DNA from: a virus
Direction: 5' to 3' (one strand)
Virus record (IMG/VR): IMGVR_UViG_3300032246_000430
Span: 1-29,528 of that record
DNA: 29,528 nt
The notes beneath the pieces are model-generated. The model had not been told where the DNA came from. It made no database searches and worked only from the letters and a program-made list of their open reading frames with translations. The translations under genes were made by a program, and so were the position numbers. Numbering within the stretch: position 1 is the stretch's first letter; each line of letters starts with the position of its first letter. Below, in pieces: positions 4,655 through 28,842 of the stretch.

Positions 4655-4662
4655 CAAAGATA
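4655..4662 (-). promoter_or_regulatory. -7 box of the regulator/SSB/ERF operon
   Basis: TATCTTTG on the minus strand, ending 4 nt (CACT) before the ATG at 4650. The -33 position reads only TTAA, so the promoter may be weak or need activation. A leaderless transcript is predicted. Confidence 0.6.
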
Positions 4663-11488: not shown

Positions 11489-13300
11489 TTATTTATTTTT
11501 AAGGCTGCCTTTATTTGGTAAATCAATTGTTTTGGTGCTGGCTTCTTGCCAGTCAGGTGGGTTAAATGGAACGCCTAAAGCATCCGCACTTTGTGAGCTT
11601 ACTCTTTTGTAATTTTCCTCAATGTCCCTTTGTTGGGTTGCTTTTTCGCTTTCACTTAATGGAACGATTTTGCCATTCACTTGCTTTCTGCGATAAGTTA
11701 ATCTATACCATTGGTGGTTACAATTAACGCCACCTTTGAATTGCCAGATAGAATAGTTTGATTTTCCACTTGGTGCAAATTTCCCGTTAATTCCATCTTC
11801 ACCCATTGTTACAATATCCTCACGTCTGTAAACAACGCCTAACTTTGCATTGCTTACCATATCCCTACAAAATTGTCTTGAATTTGAGCCGTTTTGCATT
11901 GGGGCATATCTATAACGCATTAAATAAATTCCTTTGTCGTCTTTGCTCTTTTCGTTTGGTTCGGCAAACCTTTTAAATAATTCAAACTTTGACATTTGTA
12001 TTTCGCTTTCGGCATCCGTTACGGGTTCTTCACTTACCAATTCCCAGTCAGTTGACAAAGTTTCACCTTTTGTTTTAAGATAATCCAACCACTCTTGCTC
12101 ATCTGAATCTGTCATATCTGTTACTGGTGTATTTGAAGTTAATTTAACAGCACTCAAACCGATTTCTTTTTCAGTTGTTGCCTCATCCAAATTCTTACCG
12201 CTTAAATCAGTAAACTCCAACGGCTGTAAAGTTTTAAAGTACACATCTAAGGTGTACCCATTTTTGTACATTATTTGTTTAACAGCATCCAGTAAAAGTT
12301 CCTGAAAAGGTCTGATAACCGTATTGTCAAATAATATACTTGCGTTCTTAATTTCATCAGCGTTGTTACCCAATCCAGAATTATCTTTAATCCCCAATAG
12401 CATCGGAGACGTAATTCGGTGAGCCAACATGATTTTTTGCATTGATTCATTTGATAAAAAAGTATATTGGTTATGTGCATCTGATAATTGCACTGGTGTA
12501 ATATCCGCCTTTGATTCAGCATTGTCATTGAAAGCAATAATAACCTTTCCAGCGTTTGAACTTCCGCCAAATTTGGCTTTAATTTGTGCTTCAATTAAAT
12601 TCTTAATTTCATCAGATGGCTGCCCGTTGTTAAAATTGATTAACATACTTGGTGCCATTCCATTCTTAATATTGTTTAAATGGTAATTACCTATTTCGCA
12701 TTCGATTTCAGCCCATTGAGATCCTCCTTGATAATCTGGTGGGGAAAAATAATAAGAACCGATTGCGTAGGGTTTAATTACAAAAATACATTCGGTATCA
12801 GCCTCATCAAATCCAAATGCTGAAAACCTTTTTGGCTTTTGCCCTCTTTTTAACTCAGCCCAATTTGAACAAAAGTAATACCCCTCAATTTCACCATTTT
12901 CATTGCACTTTTCAGGTCTCAAAGTTTGGATAGCCCAATGGTTTGCTTTAATGTATTGCGTTTTGTCTTTGCTTTTTACAAGTTGAATTGCACATTCACC
13001 CATTGCTTTTAAATCTAACGCACAATTTCTTAAAACGTTTGGGTCTGCAAAAACTTGCATTAAGTTTAAATATCCAGTTAAATTCCTATCGCCCTTAACA
13101 ACTTCTAACCCTTTGCCATAAATTAAATTGGCAATACCTTTTATCGCTGCGTTATTTGTTGGGCTGCCATAAAATAAATCAATCAAGTATTGGTAATAGT
13201 TATTGTCATGGCCATACTCAACCCATTCTTTATTTTTTTGCTCCGTTATTACGGGGCTTGTATATGTTGAAAGGTTTACTATTCTTACGTTATCACTCAT
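11489..13300 (-). CDS. Portal protein with C-terminal extension
   Basis: 603 aa. The dodecameric DNA channel of the capsid vertex. The first ~400 residues read as portal: NNAAIKGIANLIYGKGL, MGECAIQLVKS, HWAIQTLRPEKCNENGEIEG, then ESMQKIMLAHRITSPMLLG and GNNADEIKNASILFDNTVIR. After ~410 comes an extra region with a conserved-looking Cys/His segment (SRQFCRDMV, then YRREDIVTMG, then FKGGVNCNHQWYRLTYRRK), which I recall from capsid-maturation-type phage proteins. The portal therefore seems fused to an assembly domain. It overlaps the upstream gene by 4 nt. Confidence 0.88.
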   Translation of the reverse strand: MSDNVRIVNLSTYTSPVITEQKNKEWVEYGHDNNYYQYLIDLFYGSPTNNAAIKGIANLIYGKGLEVVKGDRNLTGYLNLMQVFADPNVLRNCALDLKAMGECAIQLVKSKDKTQYIKANHWAIQTLRPEKCNENGEIEGYYFCSNWAELKRGQKPKRFSAFGFDEADTECIFVIKPYAIGSYYFSPPDYQGGSQWAEIECEIGNYHLNNIKNGMAPSMLINFNNGQPSDEIKNLIEAQIKAKFGGSSNAGKVIIAFNDNAESKADITPVQLSDAHNQYTFLSNESMQKIMLAHRITSPMLLGIKDNSGLGNNADEIKNASILFDNTVIRPFQELLLDAVKQIMYKNGYTLDVYFKTLQPLEFTDLSGKNLDEATTEKEIGLSAVKLTSNTPVTDMTDSDEQEWLDYLKTKGETLSTDWELVSEEPVTDAESEIQMSKFELFKRFAEPNEKSKDDKGIYLMRYRYAPMQNGSNSRQFCRDMVSNAKLGVVYRREDIVTMGEDGINGKFAPSGKSNYSIWQFKGGVNCNHQWYRLTYRRKQVNGKIVPLSESEKATQQRDIEENYKRVSSQSADALGVPFNPPDWQEASTKTIDLPNKGSLKNK

Positions 13301-13644
13301 AATGTTATAAATTCAGTTGTTTGGGTGGCAGTTGCCGTAAATGGTTTAAATATGTTATAATTATTTGTGCTTTCATTTGACCACGTTGCAAGGTATTCCC
13401 ACAATAAAATTTGCCCGTTAAAAACTCTAAATAGAATTACATCTAAATTATTTGCAACTGCATTAATTGGTGTTAAAGCTGGCAAGGTTAAAGAAACTTT
13501 TGTACCTACTTTTGTAGGTGTTTTAGTTGCCGTTATTTTAGTACGGGTATTTTTATGCAATATTTCAACACTTACACTATTTATTCCCTCAAATGAAATC
13601 AATGGGAAAAAACTTATTAGCGTTGTTGTGTTATTGATTACCAT
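13297..13644 (-). CDS. Small beta-sandwich virion protein, unknown function
   Basis: 115 aa, strongly beta-patterned (TTLISFFPLISFEGINSVSV, ILLWEYLATWSNES). Its position after the tail tube terminator and before the portal suggests a minor head or tail protein. It is the first gene after the terminator and is preceded by the CAACA-N14-CGTTAA motif 6 nt before its ATG. Confidence 0.7.
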   Translation of the reverse strand: MVINNTTTLISFFPLISFEGINSVSVEILHKNTRTKITATKTPTKVGTKVSLTLPALTPINAVANNLDVILFRVFNGQILLWEYLATWSNESTNNYNIFKPFTATATQTTEFITL

Positions 13645-13650
13645 ATTAAA

Positions 13651-13675
13651 TTAACGAAAATATAGATTTGTGTTG
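13651..13675 (-). promoter_or_regulatory. ECF-type late promoter (portal unit)
   Basis: Minus strand CAACA (13671-13675), 14 nt, CGTTAA (13651-13656), then 6 nt to the ATG at 13644. Lies directly downstream of the terminator at 13682-13709. Confidence 0.65.
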
Positions 13676-13681
13676 TTTATT

Positions 13682-13709
13682 AAAAGAAAAAGCCCCAATA
13701 AAGGGGCTT
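13682..13709 (-). terminator. Intrinsic terminator after the tail tube gene
   Basis: Minus strand AAGCCCC (13703-13709) and GGGGCTT (13690-13696), a perfect 7-bp stem with a 6-nt loop, followed by a T-rich tract. Confidence 0.85.
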
Positions 13710-13739
13710 AAACAAAACTAAACTATTATGAAAACAAGA

Positions 13740-14303
13740 TTATGATGCAATCGTAATTACAGAGGCAATATCTGAATAGGTGGCAGCGTCAACAATTGAA
13801 CGTTCAACTTTTTCCATACCTACCAAAACAATAGTATTTAAACGAGCATCGCCCATTTGAACACCCCAAGAGGCTGTATCAGTTGTTGCATCCATTCCCT
13901 CAGTTTCTCCAATTAAAGAAAATACATTGTTTCTGTCCCATACAATAACTCTCCAACGACCTTGAACCAAAGTATCAAATAAATCAACGTCTAAATCCGC
14001 AGCAGTTTTTGTTGCAGCTGATGGCTTCAAACTTAAAGTTAAAGTTTGAGTAAATGCTTTTGTTCCATTATCTCTTGACAAGGCACCAGCGATTTCCATC
14101 GTTGACAATCCTTTCAATTCAAAAAAGTAACCAGTTGCTTTAACTGGTGTTGGAGTAGCTCCATTATTAATGCTGGTAACTAAACCACTTGCATCTTTTG
14201 AAACTACATCACTCAATTTATAAGGTACTAAAAATACCCCTCTTAAACCGCCTACAAATTCTTTGCATGGTTCATTTCTGGTTGCTAATGTTATACACGC
14301 CAT
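13740..14303 (-). CDS. Major tail tube protein
   Basis: 187 aa. Starts MACITLATRNEPCKEFVGGL, a pattern I recall from tail tube proteins of Bacteroidota siphoviruses, followed by beta-rich sequence with an immunoglobulin-like tube fold expected (GYFFELKGLSTMEIAG, FTQTLTLSLKP, GRWRVIVWDRNNVFSLIG). It sits alone between two terminators, one after the capsid gene and one after itself, consistent with dosage control of an abundant protein. No separate promoter is evident, so read-through of the first terminator may supply it. Confidence 0.75.
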   Translation of the reverse strand: MACITLATRNEPCKEFVGGLRGVFLVPYKLSDVVSKDASGLVTSINNGATPTPVKATGYFFELKGLSTMEIAGALSRDNGTKAFTQTLTLSLKPSAATKTAADLDVDLFDTLVQGRWRVIVWDRNNVFSLIGETEGMDATTDTASWGVQMGDARLNTIVLVGMEKVERSIVDAATYSDIASVITIAS

Positions 14304-14327
14304 TTTGTTTTTTTGTTTTTTATGTTT

Positions 14328-14355
14328 AAAAAAAAGGGTGGGGATTAACCCACCC
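14328..14355 (-). terminator. Intrinsic terminator after the major capsid gene
   Basis: Minus strand GGGTGGG (14349-14355) and CCCACCC (14336-14342), a perfect 7-bp stem with a 6-nt loop, followed by eight Ts. It lies 25 nt after the capsid stop codon. Confidence 0.92.
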
Positions 14356-14380
14356 CATTATCAAAATATTTTACCAAATA

Positions 14381-15304
14381 TTAGGTAATATTTAAAGCTA
14401 CTTGTTGTGTTGGGTTAGTAGCAATCAAACCACCTGTGAAACGCATGATTACACGAATGTTTTGTGAACCATCAATGTCAGCCATGTCAATAACTTTCAC
14501 TTCGTTTGTATCAGATAACAAACCAGTTCCAAAGTGTAAATCAGATTTCAAACCTAAGATACAATCTGAATCAGAAAGACCTGGACACATTTGAACTGGA
14601 ATACCTTGAAAGTTCATTGGTTTTTCGCCAACATAGAATTGGAAATTATAGTTACCAGCAGACAACGCAGCTTGGTAAGCTTTCATTGTAGATGGACCTA
14701 CATAGTATTGGTATCCTTCTTTGCCATACAAAGCAGCAGGAGAAGCATCCAACATTGACTGCAAACGAGCTACTACGTTTGAACCAGTATTCGCACCAGT
14801 ACCAGTGATAGTGATTGCACTATTATCCAAAAGGTAACCGAACAAACCATTGTCAGCAGTACCAGTATAGAACAAATTTGATTTCCAAATACCTAATTCA
14901 ATTTTTTGAGCAACCTCAGCAGCTACACGAGCCAATAAGAATTGGTTAAAATCGGTAGGCAATTTTTCGTAAGCAGAATAACCAGCGGCAGCAGCTTCCC
15001 AAGTTGTTCTCAATTGGTTTTTACATAATTGTAAGTTAACTTGTTTTTCAACTGTTGTTAAAACGTACTCACCAAGTGTTACACTTGAACCATCAGTAAA
15101 ATCACAAGTTGCATCAGCAACTACGATTGAATTCTGCCAGTTACGAATAACTTCTTTGTAAGCAACATTTGGATGCAAAGTGATTAAATCCTTTGCCAAA
15201 GTGTCACCAGATAGTAAAGCTGCGGCAATGTATTTCCCCGCAAAATTACCAGCGTAAGTATTTGGACTTACGGTAGGTCCTGATAAATGAATTTTATTTG
15301 TCAT
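14381..15304 (-). CDS. Major capsid protein
   Basis: 307 aa from the ATG at 15304. An ATG at 15343 would overlap the scaffold gene and add a poly-Lys/Asn leader. Begins MTNKIHLSGPTVSPNTYAG. Contains GTADNGLFGYLLDNSA, SMLDASPAALYGKEGYQYYV and IPVQMCPGLSDSDCILG, ending VIMRFTGGLIATNPTQQVAL, which fits capsid proteins of the HK97 fold in Bacteroidota phages. It is the best codon-adapted and most alanine-rich gene here and is followed by the strongest terminator, as expected for the most abundant protein. Scaffold and protease lie just upstream. Confidence 0.85.
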   Translation of the reverse strand: MTNKIHLSGPTVSPNTYAGNFAGKYIAAALLSGDTLAKDLITLHPNVAYKEVIRNWQNSIVVADATCDFTDGSSVTLGEYVLTTVEKQVNLQLCKNQLRTTWEAAAAGYSAYEKLPTDFNQFLLARVAAEVAQKIELGIWKSNLFYTGTADNGLFGYLLDNSAITITGTGANTGSNVVARLQSMLDASPAALYGKEGYQYYVGPSTMKAYQAALSAGNYNFQFYVGEKPMNFQGIPVQMCPGLSDSDCILGLKSDLHFGTGLLSDTNEVKVIDMADIDGSQNIRVIMRFTGGLIATNPTQQVALNIT

Positions 15305-15329
15305 TGTAGTATTTTTTTTTTTGTTTTTT

Positions 15330-16001
15330 TTAAGATAAAGCATTCATTACTCTGTCTGCAATTGTTTCCTCACGTCTTGCACCAATTTTAAAATTGATTG
15401 ATCTTTCAGTTTGAGCATCAGGATTGAATTTTGTGTGTTGTGCTGGTGTTTCAGATAATGCCTTTTTCAAAGCTTCATTTTCCTCAGACAATTTTACGTT
15501 CATTGATTTCAAGTTTTCACTTTCATTTTCAATTCTTGACAATCTTGCCTCAATTTTAGAAAAATAAGATTCTTCGCTTTCGCTTTTGATTTTTACAACT
15601 TTTTTAGCAGCAGCTGGAGTCATTTCACTTGCCTTTTTGATTTGTTCTTTCATTGGTTGATTTTGCATTGCCTCTGGCATCATTGTATCAACTTCTTGGT
15701 CTTGAGCTTCTTCTTCGGCAGTTGAAACTTCAACAATAATACCGCTGTCATCAACAACGATAGATGTACCATCTTCCAACTGATATTCTCCCATAGGAAC
15801 TGGAATTTTTGTTCCATCTTCTGCAATCAAAAATACTGGTTCACCAATTGAAAAAGTTTCGCTATCAAATACAGCAGTTCCATCAATAGTTTTCTTTTCT
15901 GCCAAATCAACTTCAACCACTGGTGCAGTTTCAATTGGTGCAGTTTCCTCTTTGCCCATAAGCACGTTCAATGCTCTTTGCAAAATAGTTTCGTTACTCA
16001 T
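15330..16001 (-). CDS. Capsid scaffolding-like protein
   Basis: 223 aa. The N-terminal part has a small beta repeat (FSIGEPVFLIAEDGTKI, GEYQLEDGTSIVVDDSG), the middle is an acidic, Ala-rich low-complexity linker, and residues about 140-185 form a coiled coil (FSKIEARLSRIENESENLK). The basic C-terminus could bind the capsid protein. This matches phage scaffolds or decorated delta domains, and it sits between the protease and the capsid gene. It has its own CAACA-N14-CGTTAA promoter. Confidence 0.7.
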   Translation of the reverse strand: MSNETILQRALNVLMGKEETAPIETAPVVEVDLAEKKTIDGTAVFDSETFSIGEPVFLIAEDGTKIPVPMGEYQLEDGTSIVVDDSGIIVEVSTAEEEAQDQEVDTMMPEAMQNQPMKEQIKKASEMTPAAAKKVVKIKSESEESYFSKIEARLSRIENESENLKSMNVKLSEENEALKKALSETPAQHTKFNPDAQTERSINFKIGARREETIADRVMNALS

Positions 16002-16011
16002 AGTTATTAAA

Positions 16012-16036
16012 TTAACGTTGTTTATATTTAGTGTTG
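16012..16036 (-). promoter_or_regulatory. ECF-type late promoter (scaffold/capsid unit)
   Basis: Minus strand CAACA (16032-16036), 14 nt, CGTTAA (16012-16017), then 10 nt to the ATG at 16001. In the 39-nt gap before the scaffold gene. Confidence 0.65.
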
Positions 16037-16040
16037 AATT

Positions 16041-16397
16041 TTACTTACCTACCGTTGCAATAGCTTGAACAATATTTGTAATAGTATCATCAATTTGCTT
16101 TAATGAATCTAAAACTACATTTAAGTTTTTTGCTGGTTCCAGTGAATTTGGGGCAACCCCTAATTCTTTTGCCATTGCCTCAAATTTAGTTCCTAGAGAT
16201 TGAGCCTCCTTTACTTTAATTTTAGCATAGTTTTTGTTAGCTAAGAAAAATTTAGCCTCAGCATTTAAACTTTGTACTAATTTTTGAATTTTAGCATCTG
16301 AACTATTTGCTTTGTTCAAAAACGAAACGACATCCTTTTGTAAAAATGCTATGTCGTTAGACAAAGCCATTTCTATTTTTATTCCTTTTTTTTGCAT
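16041..16397 (-). CDS. Small helical protein between protease and scaffold
   Basis: 118 aa, almost entirely helical and Lys/Ala/Asn-rich (KVKEAQSLGTKFEAMAKELG, NVVLDSLKQIDDTITNIV). Not recognised. Its position in the head cluster suggests an assembly factor or small head protein. The ATG at 16397 lies 4 nt after the protease stop. An internal ATG at 16370, preceded by an A-rich run with GGAA, is an equally plausible start (109 aa). Confidence 0.65.
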   Translation of the reverse strand: MQKKGIKIEMALSNDIAFLQKDVVSFLNKANSSDAKIQKLVQSLNAEAKFFLANKNYAKIKVKEAQSLGTKFEAMAKELGVAPNSLEPAKNLNVVLDSLKQIDDTITNIVQAIATVGK

Positions 16398-16401
16398 AAT
16401 T

Positions 16402-17004
16402 TTATATTGCTTGTTTTAGTATTTCAATTGCTTTGTTTATTCTCTCTTGTATTGGGTCAACTTTTGACATTGTTGTTGGATTTGCCTTATCAGCAAAAAA
16501 ACCCTCAATTGAGAATCCTTTTACTTTGCCAGTCTTAACATAGTCGTTCCAAATCTCGTCATTATTAACTTTAAAAGAACCATACCAAGTGCCTATTGGG
16601 TCGTTCAAATTATAGGCAGCCGATTTGTCTTTTTCCATATCCATTTTAATCCAACTTTCAACCATACACAACCCTTTTAAAGCCATCTCATGCTCTAACG
16701 TTGTGTTCTTTTGATTGCCTTGCATTAAATACATTTGAGAGGCTTTCTCAACCGTTTTTTTGGAAAAGTAACAATAGAATTTTTCTATTTCACCATTTAA
16801 AAGTTGGTCTCTGTAAATCGGTTTGTCTGGAATCAAAATTGGTCCCATCAAAATCCTTTTTTCAGTATCAACACTTGCAAAATTAATTGCATGGTCTTTT
16901 AATGCTATAAAATTTGATTCAATAGCTGGGGAATGAACTACACTCACAGCGTTAATCCCTTGCTGCAATTCGTCTTCATTCAAAATAAGTTCAACTATTC
17001 TCAT
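16402..17004 (-). CDS. XkdF-like prohead serine protease
   Basis: 200 aa. Pattern of the XkdF-type putative phage serine protease: INAVSVVHSPAIESNFIAL (His24), GPILIPDKPIYRDQ, LEHEMALKGLCMVESW, TWYGSFKVNNDEIW and VKGFSIEGFF, where the Ser is the probable nucleophile. It processes scaffold and capsid proteins during head maturation. It has its own ECF-type promoter, whose -35 part lies in the end of the tape measure gene. Confidence 0.82.
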   Translation of the reverse strand: MRIVELILNEDELQQGINAVSVVHSPAIESNFIALKDHAINFASVDTEKRILMGPILIPDKPIYRDQLLNGEIEKFYCYFSKKTVEKASQMYLMQGNQKNTTLEHEMALKGLCMVESWIKMDMEKDKSAAYNLNDPIGTWYGSFKVNNDEIWNDYVKTGKVKGFSIEGFFADKANPTTMSKVDPIQERINKAIEILKQAI

Positions 17005-17010
17005 ATTAAT

Positions 17011-17035
17011 TTAACGTCTTAAAATTAGAATGTTG
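17011..17035 (-). promoter_or_regulatory. ECF-type late promoter (protease unit)
   Basis: Minus strand CAACA (17031-17035), 14 nt, CGTTAA (17011-17016), then 6 nt to the ATG at 17004. CAACA lies in the last codons of the tape measure gene. Confidence 0.6.
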
Positions 17036-18863
17036 CATTTTGTTTAATGTGCCTATCTAAACTTTGTTGGCTATTTATGTCTTGACCTACAACATATGCT
17101 CTTGTTGGTTTTTTGTTTTGCCCATTTAAAACTCCAGCCAATTGCAAATTGCTATTTGATTGAGGGGCAACCATACTTACAGATGGCATCCCACCACCCG
17201 AGCCACCTGACTGACCTTCTGCGTGAGGTACATCAGTTGATAATATTTTTTGAACGTTTGCCAAACCAGCTGCCACGACAGCCGCAGCTCCAACAAACCC
17301 AAGTGTACCACCTTGAGCAAGAGCTTTTGTTGCACCAGCATATGTATCAATTACGGCTTGAGATACTGCAATTGCTTTGCCAAATTGAGCATTTTCCCCC
17401 AATAACCCATTTAATGATCCAAGTACTTGAGTAGCTACTTGAATACGGCTTTCAAATAAATTTTTATCAATTTCTTTTTTCTTTTCAGCTTGTTCTTTTT
17501 CAAATGCCGTTTGTTCTTTGCCTATTGCTTGAGTATCTGCATAATATTGTGCATCTAATAATTTTTTTGAATTTACAGCCTCTTGATATGCTGCTGTACC
17601 TTCTTTATTATTTGCAATATCTAAATCTAATAATGCTTTTTTATCATCATATTCTTTTTTAAGCAATTCACGTTTTTTATCAAATGCTCCAATTTGCCCT
17701 TCTAATAAAGCTGCATCACTTTCAGCAATTATTTTGTTAGCATCAATAGTTGCTTCTGCCTCACTTTTTTTAATATCTGCACTTTCTTTTGTAAGTGAAT
17801 TTATATTGGCTTGTTGTTCTGAACGCAAACCAGTATATTTTGCAGTAATACCAGTTATTTCCTGTTCAAGAGCATTAATTTCAACTATTCGATTAGGGTC
17901 AAATTGTACTGAATTTAATTGTTTAAGCATAGCCATTCTAACTTTTAAATTCTCTTTTTCTTTTTGTTCCCCCTCATCTAAAACTTTTGCTAAAGCCTCA
18001 TTTGCTGCAACTCTTTCAGCCATTGTATTACTTTCTAAATCTCTTATTTGGCGTTGCTTTTCTGATAAATTATCATAAGTTTCTACAATCCCTTGATATT
18101 GGTTTTGCAATAAACCCATATTTTTTTCAAAGTCAACAACAAAATCTGCATTGGCAACAGCTTTTTTAGTGCTTTTTGCAATGGTATCAACACTTTTAAT
18201 AACAAATTTTACGACTTCATTTGTTACAGCTTTTATTTCAGTCATTTTTTTGGCATTTTCTTTTGCCATATCAATATTCTGTTGCTGTAATTCCCCAATA
18301 CGTTTACCAATTGATTCAGCTTCTTTTGTATCACCAGTAAATTCATTCCAAGACTTTTGTAATTCTAAAATGCTAATTTTAGTAATATTTGCCCATTCAG
18401 TAAATTTGTTTAAAACCAAATCAATCATATTTGTTTTAATCCATTTTGTGCCTTTTGTAAATGAATCAACTAAATCATCCCACCAAACTTTAGGTTCTGC
18501 AAATGCTTTATACATCCATTTAAATACTGGTTTTAAAACCTCAACAAAACCATTAAATACCCCTCCAAGTGCAACCATAATCTTGGATAACATTCTTTGA
18601 GATTCAGCATTTGCCCCTATTCCAGATGTTAGCATATCCATAGCTTTAACAGCTACCCCAATACCTAATCCACCTTTAAAAGCACCAGATAATCCTTTTG
18701 CTTCTTTTGCTGTGGATTCAATTGCTTTTTCTGATTTATTTAATGATGCTGTTGTTTTTTTACTGGATTTACCAATATCATCAATATCATCTTTTAAATC
18801 ATTAAGTTTCTTATTAGCACTTCCAGTGTTAATTTTAATATCGTAGTCTATTGTTTCGGACAT
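17025..18863 (-). CDS. Tail tape measure protein
   Basis: 612 aa, which by the usual length rule suggests a fairly short tail. Long coiled coils (about 8-55 and 190-480, Lys/Glu/Ala-rich) enclose hydrophobic segments: GAFKGGLGIGVAVKAMDML near residues 60-80, and TLGFVGAAAVVAAGLANVQK near the C-terminus, the usual membrane-active part. The Gly/Ser-rich tail (GQSGGSGGGMPSVS) and end are also typical. It lies downstream of the other tail genes, not upstream of them, unlike the lambda order. Confidence 0.88.
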   Translation of the reverse strand: MSETIDYDIKINTGSANKKLNDLKDDIDDIGKSSKKTTASLNKSEKAIESTAKEAKGLSGAFKGGLGIGVAVKAMDMLTSGIGANAESQRMLSKIMVALGGVFNGFVEVLKPVFKWMYKAFAEPKVWWDDLVDSFTKGTKWIKTNMIDLVLNKFTEWANITKISILELQKSWNEFTGDTKEAESIGKRIGELQQQNIDMAKENAKKMTEIKAVTNEVVKFVIKSVDTIAKSTKKAVANADFVVDFEKNMGLLQNQYQGIVETYDNLSEKQRQIRDLESNTMAERVAANEALAKVLDEGEQKEKENLKVRMAMLKQLNSVQFDPNRIVEINALEQEITGITAKYTGLRSEQQANINSLTKESADIKKSEAEATIDANKIIAESDAALLEGQIGAFDKKRELLKKEYDDKKALLDLDIANNKEGTAAYQEAVNSKKLLDAQYYADTQAIGKEQTAFEKEQAEKKKEIDKNLFESRIQVATQVLGSLNGLLGENAQFGKAIAVSQAVIDTYAGATKALAQGGTLGFVGAAAVVAAGLANVQKILSTDVPHAEGQSGGSGGGMPSVSMVAPQSNSNLQLAGVLNGQNKKPTRAYVVGQDINSQQSLDRHIKQNATF

Positions 18864-19015
18864 AATAATTTGCGTTTAAATTGGTTTTTTATTTGTTTGA
18901 AATTTGTTATATATTCACTTTTGCCTTTTGCAATTTCTACATTTTCAGAAACTCCATAAAAGTTATCTGATTGTAAAAGTTGAATAATTGAAGCTATGCC
19001 ATCTATTTTTTTCAT
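18848..19015 (-). CDS. 55-aa hypothetical protein
   Basis: Fills the 151-nt gap before the tape measure gene. Its ATG overlaps the stop of the tail protein gene (TAATG) and its end overlaps the tape measure start by 16 nt, so it fits exactly into the operon. Sequence: KKIDGIASIIQLLQSDNFYG, then a basic C-terminal half (FKQIKNQFKRKLLCPKQ). Not recognised. Confidence 0.65.
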   Translation of the reverse strand: MKKIDGIASIIQLLQSDNFYGVSENVEIAKGKSEYITNFKQIKNQFKRKLLCPKQ

Positions 19016-21660
19016 TATTTTTTTAATATTATAAAGTTTGTTTTTAATACACCAATTGAATGCGAACCACCTGAATAAGGTTTGTACATAAATTGCACCT
19101 CATCTCCTTCTCCCAATGTCAGGATGGTATCAATTTGAACTGAATGAAAATTACTATCCGCTGAGGCATAAGCTGTCGATTGTAACCCATTTATAAAAAT
19201 AGCAAATTCAACCTTTTTATTACCAGTTTGTTCAAAACTAACCATCCCAATAAATTTAAATTGCCCCCCTTCATTTGCAATAAATTTGGCATTTGCTAAA
19301 TCAAAAATAATGTCCCCAACATAACCAATCCTTTCTGAATTAACTTGCGGTATTGGAACCCAAACGGTATCACTGGTTGTTATTGGTGTTGAGGTATTAC
19401 TCCACAAAGTATATTGATTAAAAGTTAACGTATTTTGAACGTTTGCCATTTGCTTAACCAAATCAATTGTATTGTTTTGATTATAGCTTACATCTTGAGC
19501 CGTATTCAAAAAGTTTACCCCACCACTATTTAAAGCGTTTAACAATCCACTTGCAACGGGGTAATCTCTAATATATGTTAACCCATAATTATTACTTACT
19601 GGATTACCATAGTCAACCGTATCCCCCGTAGAATCAACCGTTAAAAAGTTAATATCTGGGTAAGTAATTAATTCTAAATTTGCAACCTCAGTCAACATAT
19701 CGTATTGAATAGATTGCATTTTATAATAATTGCCACTTAAAACAATTGTATCATTTAATTTCATATTCAACCACTCTAACACTGGCAATATTGCTTTTAC
19801 TCTTACAATTCTTGATTGCTCTGAATACATTCTTGAAACATACTTATGCCAGTACATAAAGTAAAACGTATTTAAAGGGGCATCGCCTGAAAATGAATTT
19901 TCTAAACCAAATGCGGCTGAATAATTAGTTTTTGATGTTGGAGCATCACTGTAAGTTGAAACGCAAGGGAATGTATTTTGCAATACATTTTCAAAATAGT
20001 AAGTATCGGTAACAGACTTTGCCCCAGCGTAATAAAATAACGTTAAATCTTGTTTTACCCCTTTCCCTTCCTTATCCAAAAATATTGGCATATTCAATTG
20101 ACTTACTCTTATTTTTTGACCAGTTTTATCAACCTCATCTAAGTAAGTTGGTGCCAAAACATTAAAAATACTTTCAACTTTTAATTCGTCTTTTGGAAAA
20201 TCAACTTTTGGAGAATAAGACATTGAACCATATTCCCTATTTGCTACACTTTTAAAATATCCATTTGCAAGGGTTTCACTTTCTTTATGGGCAAAACTTA
20301 TTGTGGCTGGCACTGGAATTTTTTCGTGTGAAATTTCTTTAATGTCAAGATATGGTGTGTAATCTTTTAAAATTCCTAATTCATACCAATCATAAATATT
20401 ATGCAACTCAACTTCATTATTTTGGTTTGGAATAGCTACAAGATTAAAAGTTTTAAAAACTGAATTTATAAAATCTTTAATTTTTACTTGTGGCATAGTA
20501 TCAGATATTCCAACCGTTGTATCTTTTAATCCATAAGGGGCTAAAATACATTTTAAACTATAATTTGTTATTTGGTTAGCTGATGAATATGAAATATATT
20601 CAACCGTTACAATATCCCCAGCGTTTAAAATTACTTTTAATGTTGATGGCTTTGGTGTGGCTGTTGAACTAATAAATTCTCTTTTTGCTTTTGATACGCC
20701 GTTTACACAAATACTAATTATTAATCTATTGGCAAAAGGTAGCATTGAAACAGTAGATAAACTAAATACAATTTCATAAAATCCTTTTCTATTTGCAGTA
20801 AATTGACTAAATGTAGAATTATAAGCCCCAGCAGGATTGCTTACAACGGTCGGGAATGGTAATATTTTATATGCAGCAGTCCCAATTCCTGGACTTGAAA
20901 AAGTAAATGTTGTGTTGGTTGCCTCAAATAATGCTGGTTGGCTTGTTGCTTTATTATACAAAGGTCCTGAACTTTGCATTGGCAATACATACAAATTTGT
21001 TAAATCTGCCCTACTAAAAAAAGAACCAGTAACAGAATAACCAACACTTGCAAAAGCGTTTGAAATTAATTTTTTTAATCTTATTGCTGGTCTTAAATCA
21101 TCAATTTCAATTCCTTTTGGGTTTCTTATATTATCATTAACCCCACTATAATTTGAATATCTAAACCCAGTTTCATAATCTGCCAAAGGGTAAACAATAT
21201 CCCCACTTAATAAAGTTTGATTCCAACTTGATGTAACATTTGAGTAATTTGCTGTATGGTCTAAACTACTAAAATTAATTTCATTTAATTGTGATTCACC
21301 CCACAAATCTAAAATGCTTTTTGATTTTCCATAAAAAATAACATCATAGCTTGATGGCAATCCATCAATAAACTTTGCACCCTTTAATTCTATACGACCT
21401 TCAAAAACTGGCAGCCCATGAATCAAAATTGAAGCGTCTAATCCGTTATTAGGATTCCATCCAGTAATTAAAGCATTCTCGCTAAACCAGTTTGAAAATA
21501 TTGTGTTATTATTTGGTGAAGCTGGGATATTTATGCTTTGAGTAAAGTCGGTGAATACAGCCGAAAGCTCTTGCAAATCCTTCAATTGCCTTGTAAGATT
21601 TATTGATTCATCGTTAAATAAATCAACTGGCGTATTTGAAATAATTAAAGAATATCTCAT
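19015..21660 (-). CDS. Large tail/baseplate protein with two beta-sandwich modules
   Basis: 881 aa. Begins RYSLIISNTPVDLFNDESIN and VFTDFTQSINIPASPNNN, a start I recall from the large tail-tip proteins of Bacteroidota phages. Two regions look like C1q/jelly-roll-like sandwiches: about 282-375 (FTANRKGFYEIVFSLS, VILNAGDIVTVEYISYSS) and about 785-881 (GGQFKFIGMVSFEQ, FAIFINGL, ILTLGEGDEVQFMYKP). Such modules often bind carbohydrate. Function as baseplate hub or receptor-contact protein is inferred. It overlaps both neighbours by one to three bases. Confidence 0.7.
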   Translation of the reverse strand: MRYSLIISNTPVDLFNDESINLTRQLKDLQELSAVFTDFTQSINIPASPNNNTIFSNWFSENALITGWNPNNGLDASILIHGLPVFEGRIELKGAKFIDGLPSSYDVIFYGKSKSILDLWGESQLNEINFSSLDHTANYSNVTSSWNQTLLSGDIVYPLADYETGFRYSNYSGVNDNIRNPKGIEIDDLRPAIRLKKLISNAFASVGYSVTGSFFSRADLTNLYVLPMQSSGPLYNKATSQPALFEATNTTFTFSSPGIGTAAYKILPFPTVVSNPAGAYNSTFSQFTANRKGFYEIVFSLSTVSMLPFANRLIISICVNGVSKAKREFISSTATPKPSTLKVILNAGDIVTVEYISYSSANQITNYSLKCILAPYGLKDTTVGISDTMPQVKIKDFINSVFKTFNLVAIPNQNNEVELHNIYDWYELGILKDYTPYLDIKEISHEKIPVPATISFAHKESETLANGYFKSVANREYGSMSYSPKVDFPKDELKVESIFNVLAPTYLDEVDKTGQKIRVSQLNMPIFLDKEGKGVKQDLTLFYYAGAKSVTDTYYFENVLQNTFPCVSTYSDAPTSKTNYSAAFGLENSFSGDAPLNTFYFMYWHKYVSRMYSEQSRIVRVKAILPVLEWLNMKLNDTIVLSGNYYKMQSIQYDMLTEVANLELITYPDINFLTVDSTGDTVDYGNPVSNNYGLTYIRDYPVASGLLNALNSGGVNFLNTAQDVSYNQNNTIDLVKQMANVQNTLTFNQYTLWSNTSTPITTSDTVWVPIPQVNSERIGYVGDIIFDLANAKFIANEGGQFKFIGMVSFEQTGNKKVEFAIFINGLQSTAYASADSNFHSVQIDTILTLGEGDEVQFMYKPYSGGSHSIGVLKTNFIILKK

Positions 21661-22760
21661 TACCTAACTATTTGATTTATAAGTGGTTGATTTAATTCAA
21701 TTTGAATTGTGTAATCAATCAATTTATCATTTGTGCGTTTCTTTTCTGAAAATGCTGAATCAATAACCCTTGCCGATTTAATGTCAGTATCTTTTACCAA
21801 AATATTATTAGAGAAAAACAATTGCTCAATCACTTGGACATAAGCTTCACTAATCCAATTTGTATTTAATGTCATTTGAGTAACCGCATTGACGTTGTAA
21901 CTTGAATTTATAGGTACACCAAACCCATAAGCATTGCGTAAATCTGATTGAGTGTAAATTGGTTTTGAATAAGTTTCTCTTGAAATATTCAGATTCTTTT
22001 TTGATACCCCGTTAAAAACCATAGAATCATAAACCCCATATTTATTTAAAAAATGTGCGGTAACTAATCCGTACCTATTTACACATTCTCTATAAATATT
22101 AAAAACAATATTACCACCACTTTTGGTAAAAGTAACCGTTGTATTGCCAGTAACTCCACTTTCATTTAATAATTGCACTAAGTCAATCCCTTGTATTGTA
22201 TTATCACTACCAGTTACTGAATTTGGTGTTTTTGTAGTTGAACCAATTGTGATTCCCGTAATTACTGAGGCATTATACCATAAATAATACGAATTTGTTG
22301 TTTCTGGAATATAAATTTCGTTTTTATCAGTATAAACTGCATTGGTATAATTCTTATTTAACCCCTCAAAAGTATATGAATATCCATTTGTTGCCATAAC
22401 TATGGGTGAGGTAATAATTGACGAACTGCCACCAGTCCAAAACGCTTGAACTTTTACAGCAAAATAACAAGCCCCGTTGTTTATATTTGGTTTGTAAGTG
22501 CCATCAACTAAAACGTTTTCAGATAGGTATTGTTGTACTAATTTATGAACATCAATCCAAGCTCTGCCACTTTCATAAGCATCTGCATTCTTTTGCAAAA
22601 CTTGAATGGGTGTTGCTGGGATTGTAGATGTCCCATGCCAAACATACAAACTAAATTTGTAATAAAATCCAGTTTGTGTATTCCAATTTGAATCATACAC
22701 CTGATAAATTATTGAGCTTTTTGCCCCTACTATTCCCGTTGGATTTTCGTTGAAATTCAT
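21660..22760 (-). CDS. Tail protein, possibly distal tail-like
   Basis: 366 aa, beta-rich, aromatic and Asn/Thr-rich. Begins NFNENPTGIVGAKSSIIYQV, with AWIDVHKLVQQYLSEN near residues 73-88 and a helical/charged C-terminus (RTNDKLIDYTIQIELNQP). I recall this type of protein next to the large tail-tip protein in Bacteroidota phages but cannot assign a fold. The sandwiched position suggests a distal-tail or baseplate component. Confidence 0.65.
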   Translation of the reverse strand: MNFNENPTGIVGAKSSIIYQVYDSNWNTQTGFYYKFSLYVWHGTSTIPATPIQVLQKNADAYESGRAWIDVHKLVQQYLSENVLVDGTYKPNINNGACYFAVKVQAFWTGGSSSIITSPIVMATNGYSYTFEGLNKNYTNAVYTDKNEIYIPETTNSYYLWYNASVITGITIGSTTKTPNSVTGSDNTIQGIDLVQLLNESGVTGNTTVTFTKSGGNIVFNIYRECVNRYGLVTAHFLNKYGVYDSMVFNGVSKKNLNISRETYSKPIYTQSDLRNAYGFGVPINSSYNVNAVTQMTLNTNWISEAYVQVIEQLFFSNNILVKDTDIKSARVIDSAFSEKKRTNDKLIDYTIQIELNQPLINQIVR

Positions 22761-23317
22761 AAAAATTTATTGTTGATTATATCTTGCTTTACAGCTTCTT
22801 TTATTGCTGGTAAAAATTTATTCATTGTTACTTTTCTTGGCATTGTTACAAAATCAAATGGTTCAATTCCAAAGTATTTAATTTTGCGATTCATCATAAA
22901 AGACATTGCCTCTTTCCCTTTATTACCTACAAATTGACCTTTTGCGTTTCTTGGTCTTATTCCACGTTGTTGAATCCATTTATTCATAGTTTCAACTGGA
23001 ATACCTTTGCCCCCTTTCCACTTACCAGCTGGTTGTCTTCCATTTATAATTGCTTGACCATACCAAGCAAATGAAACTCCAAATTCTAAACCATTATTTG
23101 TAATTGGTTGTACTGATTTTACAAGGTTGCCAGATGCAACATAATTCCGTGAACTTTTTGTTTTACGAACGCTTGTAGGCTGCCAATCGCTACCCACCCT
23201 TTTCCAAGTTGCTCTTATGTTCGTTCTTGGTTGTTTTGCTTGTAACTGATACTTGACTTGTTGAGCCATGTATTCACTAGCTTCATCAACAACTTTTTTT
23301 GTTTCGTTATACTTCAT
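22757..23317 (-). CDS. HK97 gp10-like tail/neck protein
   Basis: 186 aa, basic. A helical N-terminus (KVVDEASEYMAQQVKYQLQA), then TSVRKTKSSRNYVASGNLVKS, FGVSFAWYGQAIINGRQPAG and a basic C-terminal helix region (FDFVTMPRKVTMNKFLPAI). The order S/T-GNL..S then beta strand with a YG..I..G motif resembles the gp10/minor tail family that joins tail to connector. Its place between the tail terminator-like gene and other tail genes agrees. Confidence 0.65.
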   Translation of the reverse strand: MKYNETKKVVDEASEYMAQQVKYQLQAKQPRTNIRATWKRVGSDWQPTSVRKTKSSRNYVASGNLVKSVQPITNNGLEFGVSFAWYGQAIINGRQPAGKWKGGKGIPVETMNKWIQQRGIRPRNAKGQFVGNKGKEAMSFMMNRKIKYFGIEPFDFVTMPRKVTMNKFLPAIKEAVKQDIINNKFL

Positions 23318-23801
23318 CGTAACAATCTGTAATGAATGGGCTAAATACCTGAATGCTTAAAACAATGTCATAACCAGCCGTTACATCTTGACTGCCTTCA
23401 ATAAATGGTGTCATCATAATTGGGCGTGTAAACTGAATTTGTCCAAAATACTCTTGCTCTTTGCTTTTTAATTTTAACATAAATTGAACGTACAAATTCT
23501 GCAAAATATGAGCATAGTTTGTATTCTCAGTATAACCAATCTTAGAGTAAACAACTTCCTCATCTAAGTTTTGGTTTTCAGTTTTAACAAAGTTTAGAAT
23601 ATCACAAATCGTAATATTAAATTGAATTGTTGTAACTTGGTTTTCTACTGATACGTTTTGAATGGTGCAATGTTCAAAAGGATAAACGTTAACCGCTTTT
23701 AAACGGCTTTCGCTAATATTCCCGTGTGAATAATTATATCCTAATTCCTCAGCTATCTCTTTAAATACTTGGAATGCTGTGCCTATGTGGTTACTTGTCA
23801 T
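23307..23801 (-). CDS. Tail completion / tail terminator-like protein
   Basis: 164 aa. Alpha-beta layout expected of tail terminators: N-terminal helix (IGTAFQVFKEIAEELG), paired strands (TTIQFNITICDILNF), a central helix (YAHILQNLYVQFMLKL) and C-terminal strands (YDIVLSIQVFSPF). Its ATG overlaps the stop of the frameshifted chaperone product (ATGA), directly coupling it to that product. Functional call from fold pattern and position only. Confidence 0.55.
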   Translation of the reverse strand: MTSNHIGTAFQVFKEIAEELGYNYSHGNISESRLKAVNVYPFEHCTIQNVSVENQVTTIQFNITICDILNFVKTENQNLDEEVVYSKIGYTENTNYAHILQNLYVQFMLKLKSKEQEYFGQIQFTRPIMMTPFIEGSQDVTAGYDIVLSIQVFSPFITDCYDEV

Positions 23802-24525
23802 CGTGTGGCTTTTTTGAATTTTGTTTGTTCAAGTTTACTAAAATCGCTTTTGTAAGCTGCCCAGCTGAAAGCTGTGTGTACGGACATTCTACTAACTGCC
23901 TCAAATTTTGTAATGTCTCCATCAGTGAGGAGGTGTATTGTTGCCATCCATCCCCATTTTTTTGAAAACTGGGTTTCGTCTGGTGTGCCTTCCGAACCGC
24001 CCTCAAATATTTCTGGATAGAGGTTAATAAGTCGATTCCTAAACTCCAAAAAAAAAGCATACAACCCAATGCAACTTCACTTGGCATTTCTTTAAAACTA
24101 TCGTTTACCTCACCATTGTAGTTTTCAATGTCGTATCTTTTGCCCTGACCCTCAATTGTAATTGGGCGATATAAAACAGACATAACTTTATAAATGTCTT
24201 TTGTCTCTTTGCAGTAATTTTCAATGTCGATATATTCGCCAATTGGGATAGTATCAATGTTTGGAATCATTCCGTATTTCACCCCGTTAAATTCAAAAGT
24301 TTGATAAAACTTTGGCTTCTCATTTACCCATTTAGAAATAATAGTAATTGCCTTGTTTAAAACGCTTAAAGGCATTTGTCTAACCTCATCCATTGTTATT
24401 TGGCAAAATATACTAATAGCGTGTAATTGCCTTAAACTATCTGTCATATCTTCACTCAATGTTGAATACTCTACCATTTGGTATAATGGCACCTCATACA
24501 TTGATGTTGGCACTTTTAATTCCAT
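23791..24525 (-). CDS. Tail assembly chaperone, zero-frame product (G-like)
   Basis: 244 aa. First 159 residues are shared with the frameshifted form (MELKVPTSMYEVPLYQM, AISIFCQITMDEVRQMPLSV). After the T9 run the zero frame continues WSLGIDLLTSIQKYLRA, then NGDGWQQYTSSLMETLQNLR. That segment itself resembles C-termini I recall in Bacteroidota phage tail proteins. It is the first gene of the tail operon, where G/GT-type chaperones lie. An ECF-type promoter lies 6 nt before its ATG. Confidence 0.75.
   Translation of the reverse strand: MELKVPTSMYEVPLYQMVEYSTLSEDMTDSLRQLHAISIFCQITMDEVRQMPLSVLNKAITIISKWVNEKPKFYQTFEFNGVKYGMIPNIDTIPIGEYIDIENYCKETKDIYKVMSVLYRPITIEGQGKRYDIENYNGEVNDSFKEMPSEVALGCMLFFWSLGIDLLTSIQKYLRAVRKAHQTKPSFQKNGDGWQQYTSSLMETLQNLRQLVECPYTQLSAGQLTKAILVNLNKQNSKKPHDDK
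23798..24525 (-). CDS. Tail assembly chaperone, -1 frameshift product (GT-like)
   Basis: If ribosomes slip back one base at the T9 run, after codon 159 the chain continues LEFRNRLINLYPEIFEGG, then TQFSKKWGWMATIHLL, GDITKFEAVSRMSVH and a KLEQTKFKKATR end, giving 242 aa. The WGW...L..GDIT.FE pattern is one I recall as conserved at the end of tail chaperone fusions in this phage group. The stop overlaps the next gene's ATG. An alternative is an assembly indel in the homopolymer, in which case only one frame is genuine. Confidence 0.65.
24048..24056 (-). other. Slippery T9 run for -1 frameshift
   Basis: On the minus strand C-T9-GG is read CTT TTT TTT TGG in the zero frame (codons 157-160). T TTT TTT is a perfect X XXY YYZ slippery heptamer. 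No strong downstream stem is obvious by eye. Confidence 0.6.
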
Positions 24526-24531
24526 ACCTAA

Positions 24532-24556
24532 TTAACGAAATAAAAACGATTTGTTG
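24532..24556 (-). promoter_or_regulatory. ECF-type late promoter (tail unit)
   Basis: Minus strand CAACA (24552-24556), 14 nt, CGTTAA (24532-24537), then 6 nt to the ATG at 24525. With the copy at 13651-13675 it also shares AACAACA and TTTCGTTAATT around the two cores. Confidence 0.7.
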
Positions 24557-24700: not shown

Positions 24701-24736
24701 GCACCCTCAAAAGCACCCTCAAAAGCACCCTCAAAA
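24701..24736. repeat. Three perfect tandem copies of a 12-bp unit
   Basis: GCACCCTCAAAA occurs three times in a row on the plus strand at 24701, 24713 and 24725. On the minus strand it reads as repeated Phe-Glu-Gly-Ala in an open stretch of about 37 codons without a start codon. It abuts the terminator at 24733-24776. Confidence 0.9.
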
Positions 24737-24776
24737 AAAAAGCCCCAAAATCAGTTCTTACGGTATGAGATTGGGG
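24733..24776 (-). terminator. Intrinsic terminator closing the terL-tail intergenic RNA
   Basis: Minus strand CCCCAATC (24769-24776) pairs with GATTTTGGGG (24743-24752, two-base bulge), loop 16 nt, followed by C and nine Ts. Confidence 0.75.
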
Positions 24777-24850
24777 ACATTTGAAATACGGGCTCGACAG
24801 CCTCTCAACGGTTTAGTTTAACGTGGGCTTCCCTCCCATTTCCGTTTTTT

Positions 24851-24883
24851 AAAAACCCCCAAGTTGGTTTAATTCTCAGGGGT
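24851..24883 (-). terminator. Hairpin terminator after terL
   Basis: Minus strand ACCCCTGAG (24875-24883) pairs with CTTGGGGGT (24855-24863) including two G-U pairs, loop 11 nt, followed by TTTTT overlapping the stem base. It could end the terL transcript or be the first hairpin of the candidate small RNA. Confidence 0.6.
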
Positions 24884-24906
24884 ATGATACAGATATGAAG
24901 ACGGTA

Positions 24907-24914
24907 CAAAGATA
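24907..24914 (-). promoter_or_regulatory. -7 box directly after terL
   Basis: TATCTTTG on the minus strand, starting one base after the terL stop codon. No TTG at the -33 distance. No start codon follows closely, unlike the other TAnnTTTG boxes, which suggests it serves a non-coding transcript. Confidence 0.45.
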
Positions 24915-27831: not shown

Positions 27832-27949
27832 TTTCTATTTCTTTAATTGTTACCATTTCGTTTTTATCCTCATCATAAACTCGCAAATATATTTTGCCAT
27901 TTATAAATGAAATGCAAGGTTTATGGATTGTATGTTTTGTAGACTTCAT
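27782..27949 (-). CDS. 55-aa hypothetical protein between two longer genes
   Basis: Begins MKSTKHTIHKPCISFINGKI, then YLRVYDEDKNEMVTIKEIEN and a basic end. It fills the 89-nt gap between its neighbours, overlapping the end of the upstream gene by 29 nt and the ParB-like start by 50 nt. The strand-turn-strand pattern looks like a small beta domain. Not recognised. Confidence 0.6.
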   Translation of the reverse strand: MKSTKHTIHKPCISFINGKIYLRVYDEDKNEMVTIKEIENEDTISKNNRGKTKPE

Positions 27950-28316
27950 TAAGGTCGTTAATCATTTCTTGAAAAGGTTTTGGGCTGCAAGAACGACATG
28001 GGCAATAATACGCTTTTGTTTGAAATATATAATTCCAAATCTCGCAAAGCATATCAACCTCTTTGCCAGTTAAAAAGTCTCTTGGAATCTCACGAAATTC
28101 AGTCCAATACTTGAAATATTCCTCAGTAAAACAAATGGGCTTTTTGTATTGAAATAGTTTGTTTAAAACATCCTTACGAGCATCACAACCGCAATCCTCA
28201 CCAGCTATAAATTTAACAACCTTTTCAATCCCAGTCGCCTGAGTGATTTTCTGTATAGTATCGCCCAATCCTTGAGATGGTCGATTTTTCGTTTTCCTCT
28301 TGACTGTATTTGTCAT
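27921..28316 (-). CDS. Conserved phage protein with Cys motifs
   Basis: 131 aa. Basic N-terminus, then GLGDTIQKITQATGIEKVVK, EDCGCDARKDVLNKLFQYKK and a C-terminal CPCRSC, so five cysteines in two clusters could bind a metal. I recall the GLGDTI...DCGC.KRK.LNK arrangement in Bacteroidota phages next to sigma-like proteins; function unknown. Its first 31 codons overlap the end of the sigma factor gene in another frame. Confidence 0.75.
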   Translation of the reverse strand: MTNTVKRKTKNRPSQGLGDTIQKITQATGIEKVVKFIAGEDCGCDARKDVLNKLFQYKKPICFTEEYFKYWTEFREIPRDFLTGKEVDMLCEIWNYIFQTKAYYCPCRSCSPKPFQEMINDLNEVYKTYNP

Positions 28317-28824
28317 ATAAATTTTGTGTTTTTTGTTTAATTAATTCCTTTGCATTTTTGACAATGTTAAAAACGGAACGGGTTGGAATGGATGTTCTTT
28401 TCTCAATTTCTCTAAAACTAAACCCATACACAAAATAAAGTTCCAATAACATCTGGTCATATTCCCTCATTCCATCAATAACTTTTTTTATCTCAGCCAT
28501 TAATTCAGAATAAGAATCGGTTAATTCAATTTCAATGCCATCAACTTCATTTTCATCAGTATAATTCTCATCAAAAATATCTTTCTTTTTTGCCCTAAAA
28601 TCATTAACAACATTTGATTGAATAATTTTAAAAACATACATCGTATGCAATTTGCCATTCTCACCAGTGATTCGGTTTAAATTACCATCGGTAGCGTTAA
28701 TTTCAATAATCTTAATGTAAAAATCTTGTATTATGTCATCAACGTTGTTTGCAGTCGCCCCTAAATACAATGCCATTTTACGCCATTCGTTATGCCTTAA
28801 CGCTATCGAATCAATTGTTATCAA
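28225..28824 (-). CDS. Phage-encoded ECF-like RNA polymerase sigma factor
   Basis: 199 aa, the size of ECF sigma factors (regions 2 and 4 only). Region 2 begins IALRHNEWRKMALYLGATAN and includes NVDDIIQDFYIKIIE (compare the DivQe.yik pattern). Region 4 is MLLELYFVYGFSFREIEKRT followed by SIPTRSVFNIVKNAKELIKQ, a good HTH. No ATG precedes the conserved start, and an in-frame stop lies four codons upstream, so TTG at 28824 is chosen. It probably directs host polymerase to the CAACA-N14-CGTTAA promoters of the morphogenesis genes (inference). Confidence 0.85.
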   Translation of the reverse strand: MITIDSIALRHNEWRKMALYLGATANNVDDIIQDFYIKIIEINATDGNLNRITGENGKLHTMYVFKIIQSNVVNDFRAKKKDIFDENYTDENEVDGIEIELTDSYSELMAEIKKVIDGMREYDQMLLELYFVYGFSFREIEKRTSIPTRSVFNIVKNAKELIKQKTQNLYDKYSQEENEKSTISRIGRYYTENHSGDWD

Positions 28825-28834
28825 TTTACTTATT

Positions 28835-28842
28835 CAAATATA
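28835..28842 (-). promoter_or_regulatory. Possible -7 box of the sigma factor gene
   Basis: TATATTTG on the minus strand in the 23-nt gap, ending 10 nt before the TTG start. No -33 TTG at proper spacing, so activation or chance is possible. Confidence 0.4.

Follow-up and report, generated by a model that had tools for sequence, protein, structure and literature searches.

A putative extracytoplasmic function-type sigma factor and its proposed two-box promoters before the head and tail genes of a virus lineage

The stretch of DNA analysed here, referred to as the window, is the entire IMG/VR virus record IMGVR_UViG_3300032246_000430 (29,528 bases). It carries four copies of a two-box element before genes for the head, tail and connector, together with a gene for a 199-amino-acid (aa) protein of the extracytoplasmic function (ECF) sigma factor type, which is proposed to read them. 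The element, CAACA-N14-CGTTAA, has four exact matches in the window, all on the minus strand, and these are named P1 to P4 in the order of the start codons that follow (24525, 17004, 16001 and 13644). The coordinates, spacings and distances to ATG of 6, 6, 10 and 6 nucleotides (nt) given in a preliminary description of the sequence were all recovered (Table 1). Exact sites stand only before head, tail and connector genes, and boxes of the host type, TAnnTTTG, are seen before some other genes. By chance 0.02 exact matches are expected, and none of 100 shuffles reached four. Since the motif was derived from the data, the shuffle figure alone is weak; with two mismatches allowed the motif is not enriched in the window (21 vs 14.7 expected), and for both reasons conservation was taken as the proper test. 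A scan of the window for sigma70-type promoters stayed at chance level, and an Rfam search of the window returned no match.

The genes that follow the four sites belong, as judged from gene content, to a presumed late programme. In the P1 unit a first gene is followed by tail genes, the last of which encodes the tape measure protein. P2 stands before the head maturation protease gene and P3 before a gene for a scaffold-like protein. Both products match one family, phrog_24921, the protease its N-terminal part and the scaffold-like protein its C-terminal part. The next gene downstream is likely that of the major capsid protein, to judge by its position and its conservation (74-84% in freshwater-type records, 41-43% in marine ones). 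P4 precedes a short connector gene with the portal gene next downstream. Two of the sites had been said to lie directly downstream of terminators; this holds only for the site at 13644, that at 24525 lying ~200-300 nt below two terminator-like hairpins. In the close relative G034 the hairpin found at 24856..24882 in the window abuts P1, and in records G023 and G024 (L325 4352, L337 5626) a terminator hairpin lies wholly inside the -35/-10 spacer before the first tail gene, where terminator and promoter share sequence. From the position of P4 after a terminator, that of P1 in G034 and the hairpin in the spacer of G023 and G024, it follows that the operons need promoters of their own. The minus strand at 24733-24914 has a TATCTTTG box directly after the terminase gene; the next ~170 nt are non-coding and hold a triple GAGGGTGCTTTT repeat and two hairpins resembling terminators. 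This stretch could be a small RNA; its folding is no better than that of shuffled sequence (z -0.57), it has no Rfam match and it is mostly unconserved.

Table 1. Sites, genes and signals of the window that bear on the two-box element
Feature	Position	Strand	Remarks
P1	24532..24556	-	CAACA 24552-24556, N14, CGTTAA 24532-24537; exact match; 6 nt to ATG 24525
P2	17011..17035	-	CAACA 17031-17035, N14, CGTTAA 17011-17016; exact match; 6 nt to ATG 17004
P3	16012..16036	-	CAACA 16032-16036, N14, CGTTAA 16012-16017; exact match; 10 nt to ATG 16001
P4	13651..13675	-	CAACA 13671-13675, N14, CGTTAA 13651-13656; exact match; 6 nt to ATG 13644
ECF-type sigma factor	28225..28824	-	199 aa, regions 2 and 4 only, TTG start; NCBIfam and fold
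TATATTTG, Bacteroidota housekeeping -7 box (TAnnTTTG)	28835..28842	-	just upstream of the sigma start
131-aa protein	27921..28316	-	overlaps the end of the sigma gene; phrog_32048, unknown
First gene of the P1 unit	23791..24525	-	phrog_32199 (unknown)
Tail length tape measure protein, last gene of the P1 unit	17025..18863	-	phrog_3336, 2.9e-14
Head maturation protease (Peptidase_S78_2), first gene of P2	16402..17004	-	
Scaffold-like protein, first gene of P3	15330..16001	-	C-terminal part of phrog_24921
Likely major capsid gene	14381-15343		phrog_11320 (unknown function)
First gene of P4	13297..13644	-	115 aa
Portal gene	11489-13300		phrog_33693 portal, 2e-101
Intrinsic terminator	13690..13709	-	directly upstream of P4
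Terminator-like hairpin, CCCCTGAG...TTGGGGG, then T run	24856..24882	-	between the terminase gene and P1

A search of IMG/VR with the protease encoded downstream of P2 gave 80 relatives. Many of these, with protein identities of ~60-68%, retain both CAACA-N14-CGTT and the ATG ahead of the protease gene. Across 82 protease-bearing loci AACA-N14-CGTTA occurred 106 times, and the other spacings between 6 and 25 gave 0-26 occurrences each; a start codon followed 4-13 nt downstream in 102 of the 106. In 26 records of the lineage, with Flavobacterium phage Fpv5 scored alongside as outgroup, AACA-Nk-[CAG]GTT[AT]-N6..12-ATG had 68 occurrences with k = 14 and between 1 and 15 with every one of 19 other values of k; these counts are not independent, some records being closely related. 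Markov versions of the window held a mean of 0.11 cases of AACA-N14-CGTTW followed by ATG. A redundancy-reduced set comprised 74 sites anchored on CGTT[AT] 8-10 nt before the ATG of open reading frames of at least 80 aa; AACA stood at N14 in 21 of them and at any other offset in 5 at most, and the spacer between the boxes carried almost no information content. Among the matches listed for the bare 14-base pattern in IMG/VR most were due to chance, and their counts were not used.

The sites of the relatives stand before orthologous late genes. The P1 site precedes the same gene in G004, G009, G010, G013, G016, G034, G041, G043, G045, G048 and G052. P2 is kept before the protease gene or before a small gene preceding it, P3 before a gene of the MSNAKE/MSNAKD type, and P4 before the MVINNTT/MHINNTS gene. 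Some relatives carry further sites before a 96-aa gene preceding the counterpart of the 24525 gene and before later tail or structural genes. On sequence grounds, the motif before the late genes is not a local accident.

Farther out, the boxes change in form. In marine relatives CGTTATAT lies exactly 8 nt before the ATG in 18 cases (~0.5 at other gaps), and read by eye the element is CAAAA-N14-CGTTATAT, with CAAAA in the place of CAACA. G023 and G024 carry AACA-N14-[AG]GTTTTAT at the same genes as elsewhere in the lineage, and their use as negatives lacking both sigma gene and motif was dropped for that reason. The cultured Nonlabens phages P12024S and P12024L (Inhavirus) belong to the wider lineage. 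P12024S has AACA-N16-CGTTA, in the form AACA-N16-CGTTAA, before its genes at 179, 3031, 5412, 21280, 25201 and 26802 and AACA-N15-CGTTA before that at 23961, seven sites before start codons in all; a pattern count put 6 of its sites at N16 and 2 at N15, with no site at N14. Its protease is 41% and its sigma 26% identical to those of the window, and its spacing is 16 rather than 14. Fpv5, with a terminase ~54% identical, shows neither the N14 nor the N16 layout. Upstream of the terminase gene, L337 (121-902) and L325 (16-435) carry QueC-like, SET-domain and QueF-like genes, which suggest 7-deazaguanine DNA modification in the clade of G023 and G024.

The 199-aa protein had been described as a sigma factor with regions 2 and 4 only, and both a curated model and the predicted fold assign it to the ECF type. 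It matches TIGR02937 (sigma70-ECF, NCBIfam) with 43.5 bits against a curated cut-off of 42.9 over residues 21-165 (56.9 bits for the homologue in L206), and it has no region 1.1, 1.2 or 3. Its AlphaFold model (mean predicted local distance difference test score 78) consists of two helical domains joined by a low-confidence linker. The top Foldseek matches were E. coli sigmaE (1or7), B. subtilis SigW (5wuq) and AlgU (8z6g), at probability 1.00, and M. tuberculosis sigmaH was also matched. The global template modelling (TM) score is low because the domains are oriented differently; region 4 alone, compared with region 4 of sigmaE bound to -35 DNA, gave a TM score of 0.76. Its homologues were located in 163 IMG/VR stretches, and a search of GTDB bacterial genome contigs returned none. 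Single-sequence tblastn with the sigma of the window or of a relative gave no match in the phage collection, a profile being needed to reach P12024S. There the gene for gp33, a protein with an annotated sigma-70 region 2, precedes the terminase gene by a few genes, as the sigma gene does in the window. By profile search the gene was present in all long motif-bearing records except G013, G023, G024 and G029, the contigs of which start at or near the terminase gene or have too little upstream sequence, and G015 has a fragment at its contig end. Every long motif-bearing record that covers the locus thus has the sigma gene, upstream of the terminase gene. Region 4 is not the same in the freshwater, marine and Inhavirus groups, and its differences run parallel to those of the promoters (CAACA, CAAAA and the altered spacing), in a comparison made by eye and not as a statistical test.

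A host-type box lies just upstream of the sigma start; TACATTTG occupies the same place in L202 and L203, and other records show partial matches. The box in the window and in L202 and L203 suggests that the sigma gene is expressed early by the host polymerase. In the first search, the marine homologues G031:C1:4619-5146 and G027:C1:17991-18458 were read through three TAG and one TGA codons, for which stop-codon recoding, sequencing error and read-through by the search are possible explanations. The 131-aa protein encoded at the end of the sigma gene is a possible candidate for a sigma partner, such as an anti-sigma factor. In nearly all sigma-bearing records its homologue is, of the window genes mapped, the one closest downstream of the sigma gene; this includes P12024S, where its gene is itself preceded by the promoter motif. 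This protein (GLGDTI...GEDCGCD) is better conserved than the sigma in remote records (43-56% vs ~24%).

The register of the boxes bears on where transcription would start. In the M. tuberculosis sigmaH complex the -10 GTT occupies -11 to -9; this sigma has GGAACA as its -35 consensus and works best with a spacer of 17 base pairs (bp) (PMC6411747). The distance from AACA to GTT is 17 bp in P12024S, equal to that of sigmaH, and 15 bp in the window clade. CGTT lies 8-12 nt before the ATG, commonly exactly 8, and in genes starting with two methionines (e.g. MMTTQ) the first ATG is too close and the second stands at gap 9. With CGTT-N8-ATG and the register of sigmaH, the first transcribed base would be the A of the ATG, and the late mRNAs are predicted to be leaderless, which would be unusual for the phylum Bacteroidota. 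Most transcripts of F. johnsoniae carry leaders: among those with a probable promoter, 87% have one of more than 10 nt, and the mean length is 33 nt (PMC6847099). Among 37 Bacteroidetes/Chlorobi genomes, leaderless genes were recognised in a single one (PMC3160421). Boxes of the TAnnTTTG type were also seen 4 or 5 nt before the ATG on the minus strand, at 4662, 5270, 6217 and 26475 (4 nt) and at 2192; given a host register of 4-5 nt, boxes at such distances mean that these non-late genes may be leaderless too.

It is doubtful, but conceivable, that the promoters are real and the mRNAs are not leaderless, with upstream or variable starts and a distance from CGTT to ATG fixed by something else, such as a translation signal. 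Starts at ECF promoters can vary by a few nt, and the freshwater clade often has gaps of 9-10 nt. Against this, the commonest gap sets +1 on the A of the start codon in the register of sigmaH, almost every marine site and most of those in P12024S have a gap of exactly 8 nt, and a start farther upstream would fall within the -10 element. A leaderless late programme shared by the whole lineage, with -35 box, spacer, -10 box, N8 and AUG forming one unit and with sigma region 4 and the boxes changing together, including the change of spacer from 14 to 16, is regarded as somewhat probable.

The full account, in which an ECF-type sigma of the phage, its matched late promoters and leaderless or near-leaderless late mRNAs act together, is considered highly probable on the sequence evidence. 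The viruses of this widespread lineage probably infect Bacteroidota. The sigma gene would probably be transcribed early by host RNA polymerase from its host-type promoter, and its product, as expected from its family, would bind the host core RNA polymerase. It would then direct the polymerase to promoters made of a -35 AACA and a -10 CGTT(A/T) at a fixed spacing of 14 bp. Standing before the tail genes, the gene of the head protease and the scaffold/capsid and connector/portal units, these promoters would form a late morphogenesis regulon, with transcription predicted to start on, or a few nt from, the A of the start codon, giving leaderless or nearly leaderless late mRNAs. That the sigma of the window drives these promoters is suggested by AAC at -35, CGT or GTT at -10 and the fixed spacing, an ECF signature linked to it by association. 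The earlier proposal of an ECF-like phage sigma driving a head and tail late regulon finds good in silico support: those of its suggested checks that were run came out in its favour, with matches far above those in shuffles and at other spacings, conservation of the motif before orthologous late genes and co-occurrence of the sigma gene, and the curated model and the fold agree with it. The prediction of leaderless mRNA from the distance between promoter and ATG goes beyond that proposal. Several observations weigh against it. The -35 box of P2 overlaps the final codons (NATF-stop) of the tape measure gene, so that its conservation is partly confounded with coding sequence; Pfam region-2 matches are weak or below threshold for most members; the motif persists without a detected sigma in G023, G024 and G029, whose contigs may end before the locus; and no motif of this kind is recognisable in a more remote clade (L394 type) that has a sigma-like gene. 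In L394, L397, L399, L408, L411 and other such relatives by terminase, this diverged gene lies near the terminase gene.

Many ECF sigmas are present in Bacteroidota, and this background fits the view that the sites are real promoters read by a host ECF sigma, the phage protein doing something else. The three truncated records with sites and no detected sigma (G023, G024, G029) point the same way. Such a reading is improbable, since the phage sigma is conserved at the same locus across the lineage, the -35 box or the spacing shifts where its region 4 shifts, and no close relative of it was found in GTDB genome contigs. A function of the element as an RNA signal for translation initiation or processing, or as an operator or repressor site, would agree with its link to start codons and to one strand and with the host-like A/T-rich context favoured for initiation in Flavobacterium (PMC6847099). 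Two short AAC and CGT boxes at fixed spacing around an unconserved spacer are the layout of an ECF promoter, the sites follow terminators and a terminator hairpin can sit inside the spacer (G023, G024), all of which make a signal of that kind very improbable. Weak matches to Pfam Phage_antitermQ (0.0056) and phrog_79 (0.0031) could suggest a Q-type antiterminator in place of a sigma, a notion hardly credible beside the full-length sigma70-ECF match above cut-off and the structure matches to two-domain ECF factors.

The phage system resembles the known ECF (group IV) sigmas, such as E. coli sigmaE and M. tuberculosis sigmaH (GGAACA-N17-GTT), in its two domains, the AAC at -35, the CGT or GTT at -10 and the rigid spacing. 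It differs in that the sigma is phage-encoded and a core gene near the terminase gene, would drive virion genes instead of a stress response and has a -10 box tied to the start codon. T4 gp55 and SPO1 gp28/gp34, which belong to another sigma lineage and promoter type, offer a functional analogy as phage-made sigmas that redirect host RNA polymerase to later genes; unlike theirs, the promoters described here are ECF-like and abut the ATG. Phage sigmas that run late genes are thus a known kind, and sigma subunits of phages that redirect the host polymerase to later genes have been noted as essential (PMC9429907). In the leaderless genes of Actinobacteria and Deinococcus, -10 boxes lie ~10-12 nt before the start codon (PMC3160421), a placement by which the transcript likewise begins at the start codon; those are host sigma70 promoters, unlike the ECF-like phage promoters of this lineage. 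A full-text literature search, with subscription papers mostly outside its scope, turned up neither an account of an ECF-type phage sigma that has late promoters of its own nor a description of the promoters of P12024S.

The control of late genes in phages of Bacteroidota is poorly known, and a compact sigma gene with a readable promoter code is here described for a lineage of well over a hundred uncultured virus contigs and one cultured Nonlabens phage. If the proposed account is true, the lineage would provide a natural family of ECF sigmas and promoters of varied specificity and spacing and a marker for annotating late operons in its viruses. The promoter would moreover determine where translation starts, in a phylum whose mRNAs otherwise have leaders and do without a Shine-Dalgarno sequence. 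Were the leaderless programme to hold across the lineage, the phage would exchange the promoter code of its host and the leadered start of translation in one step.

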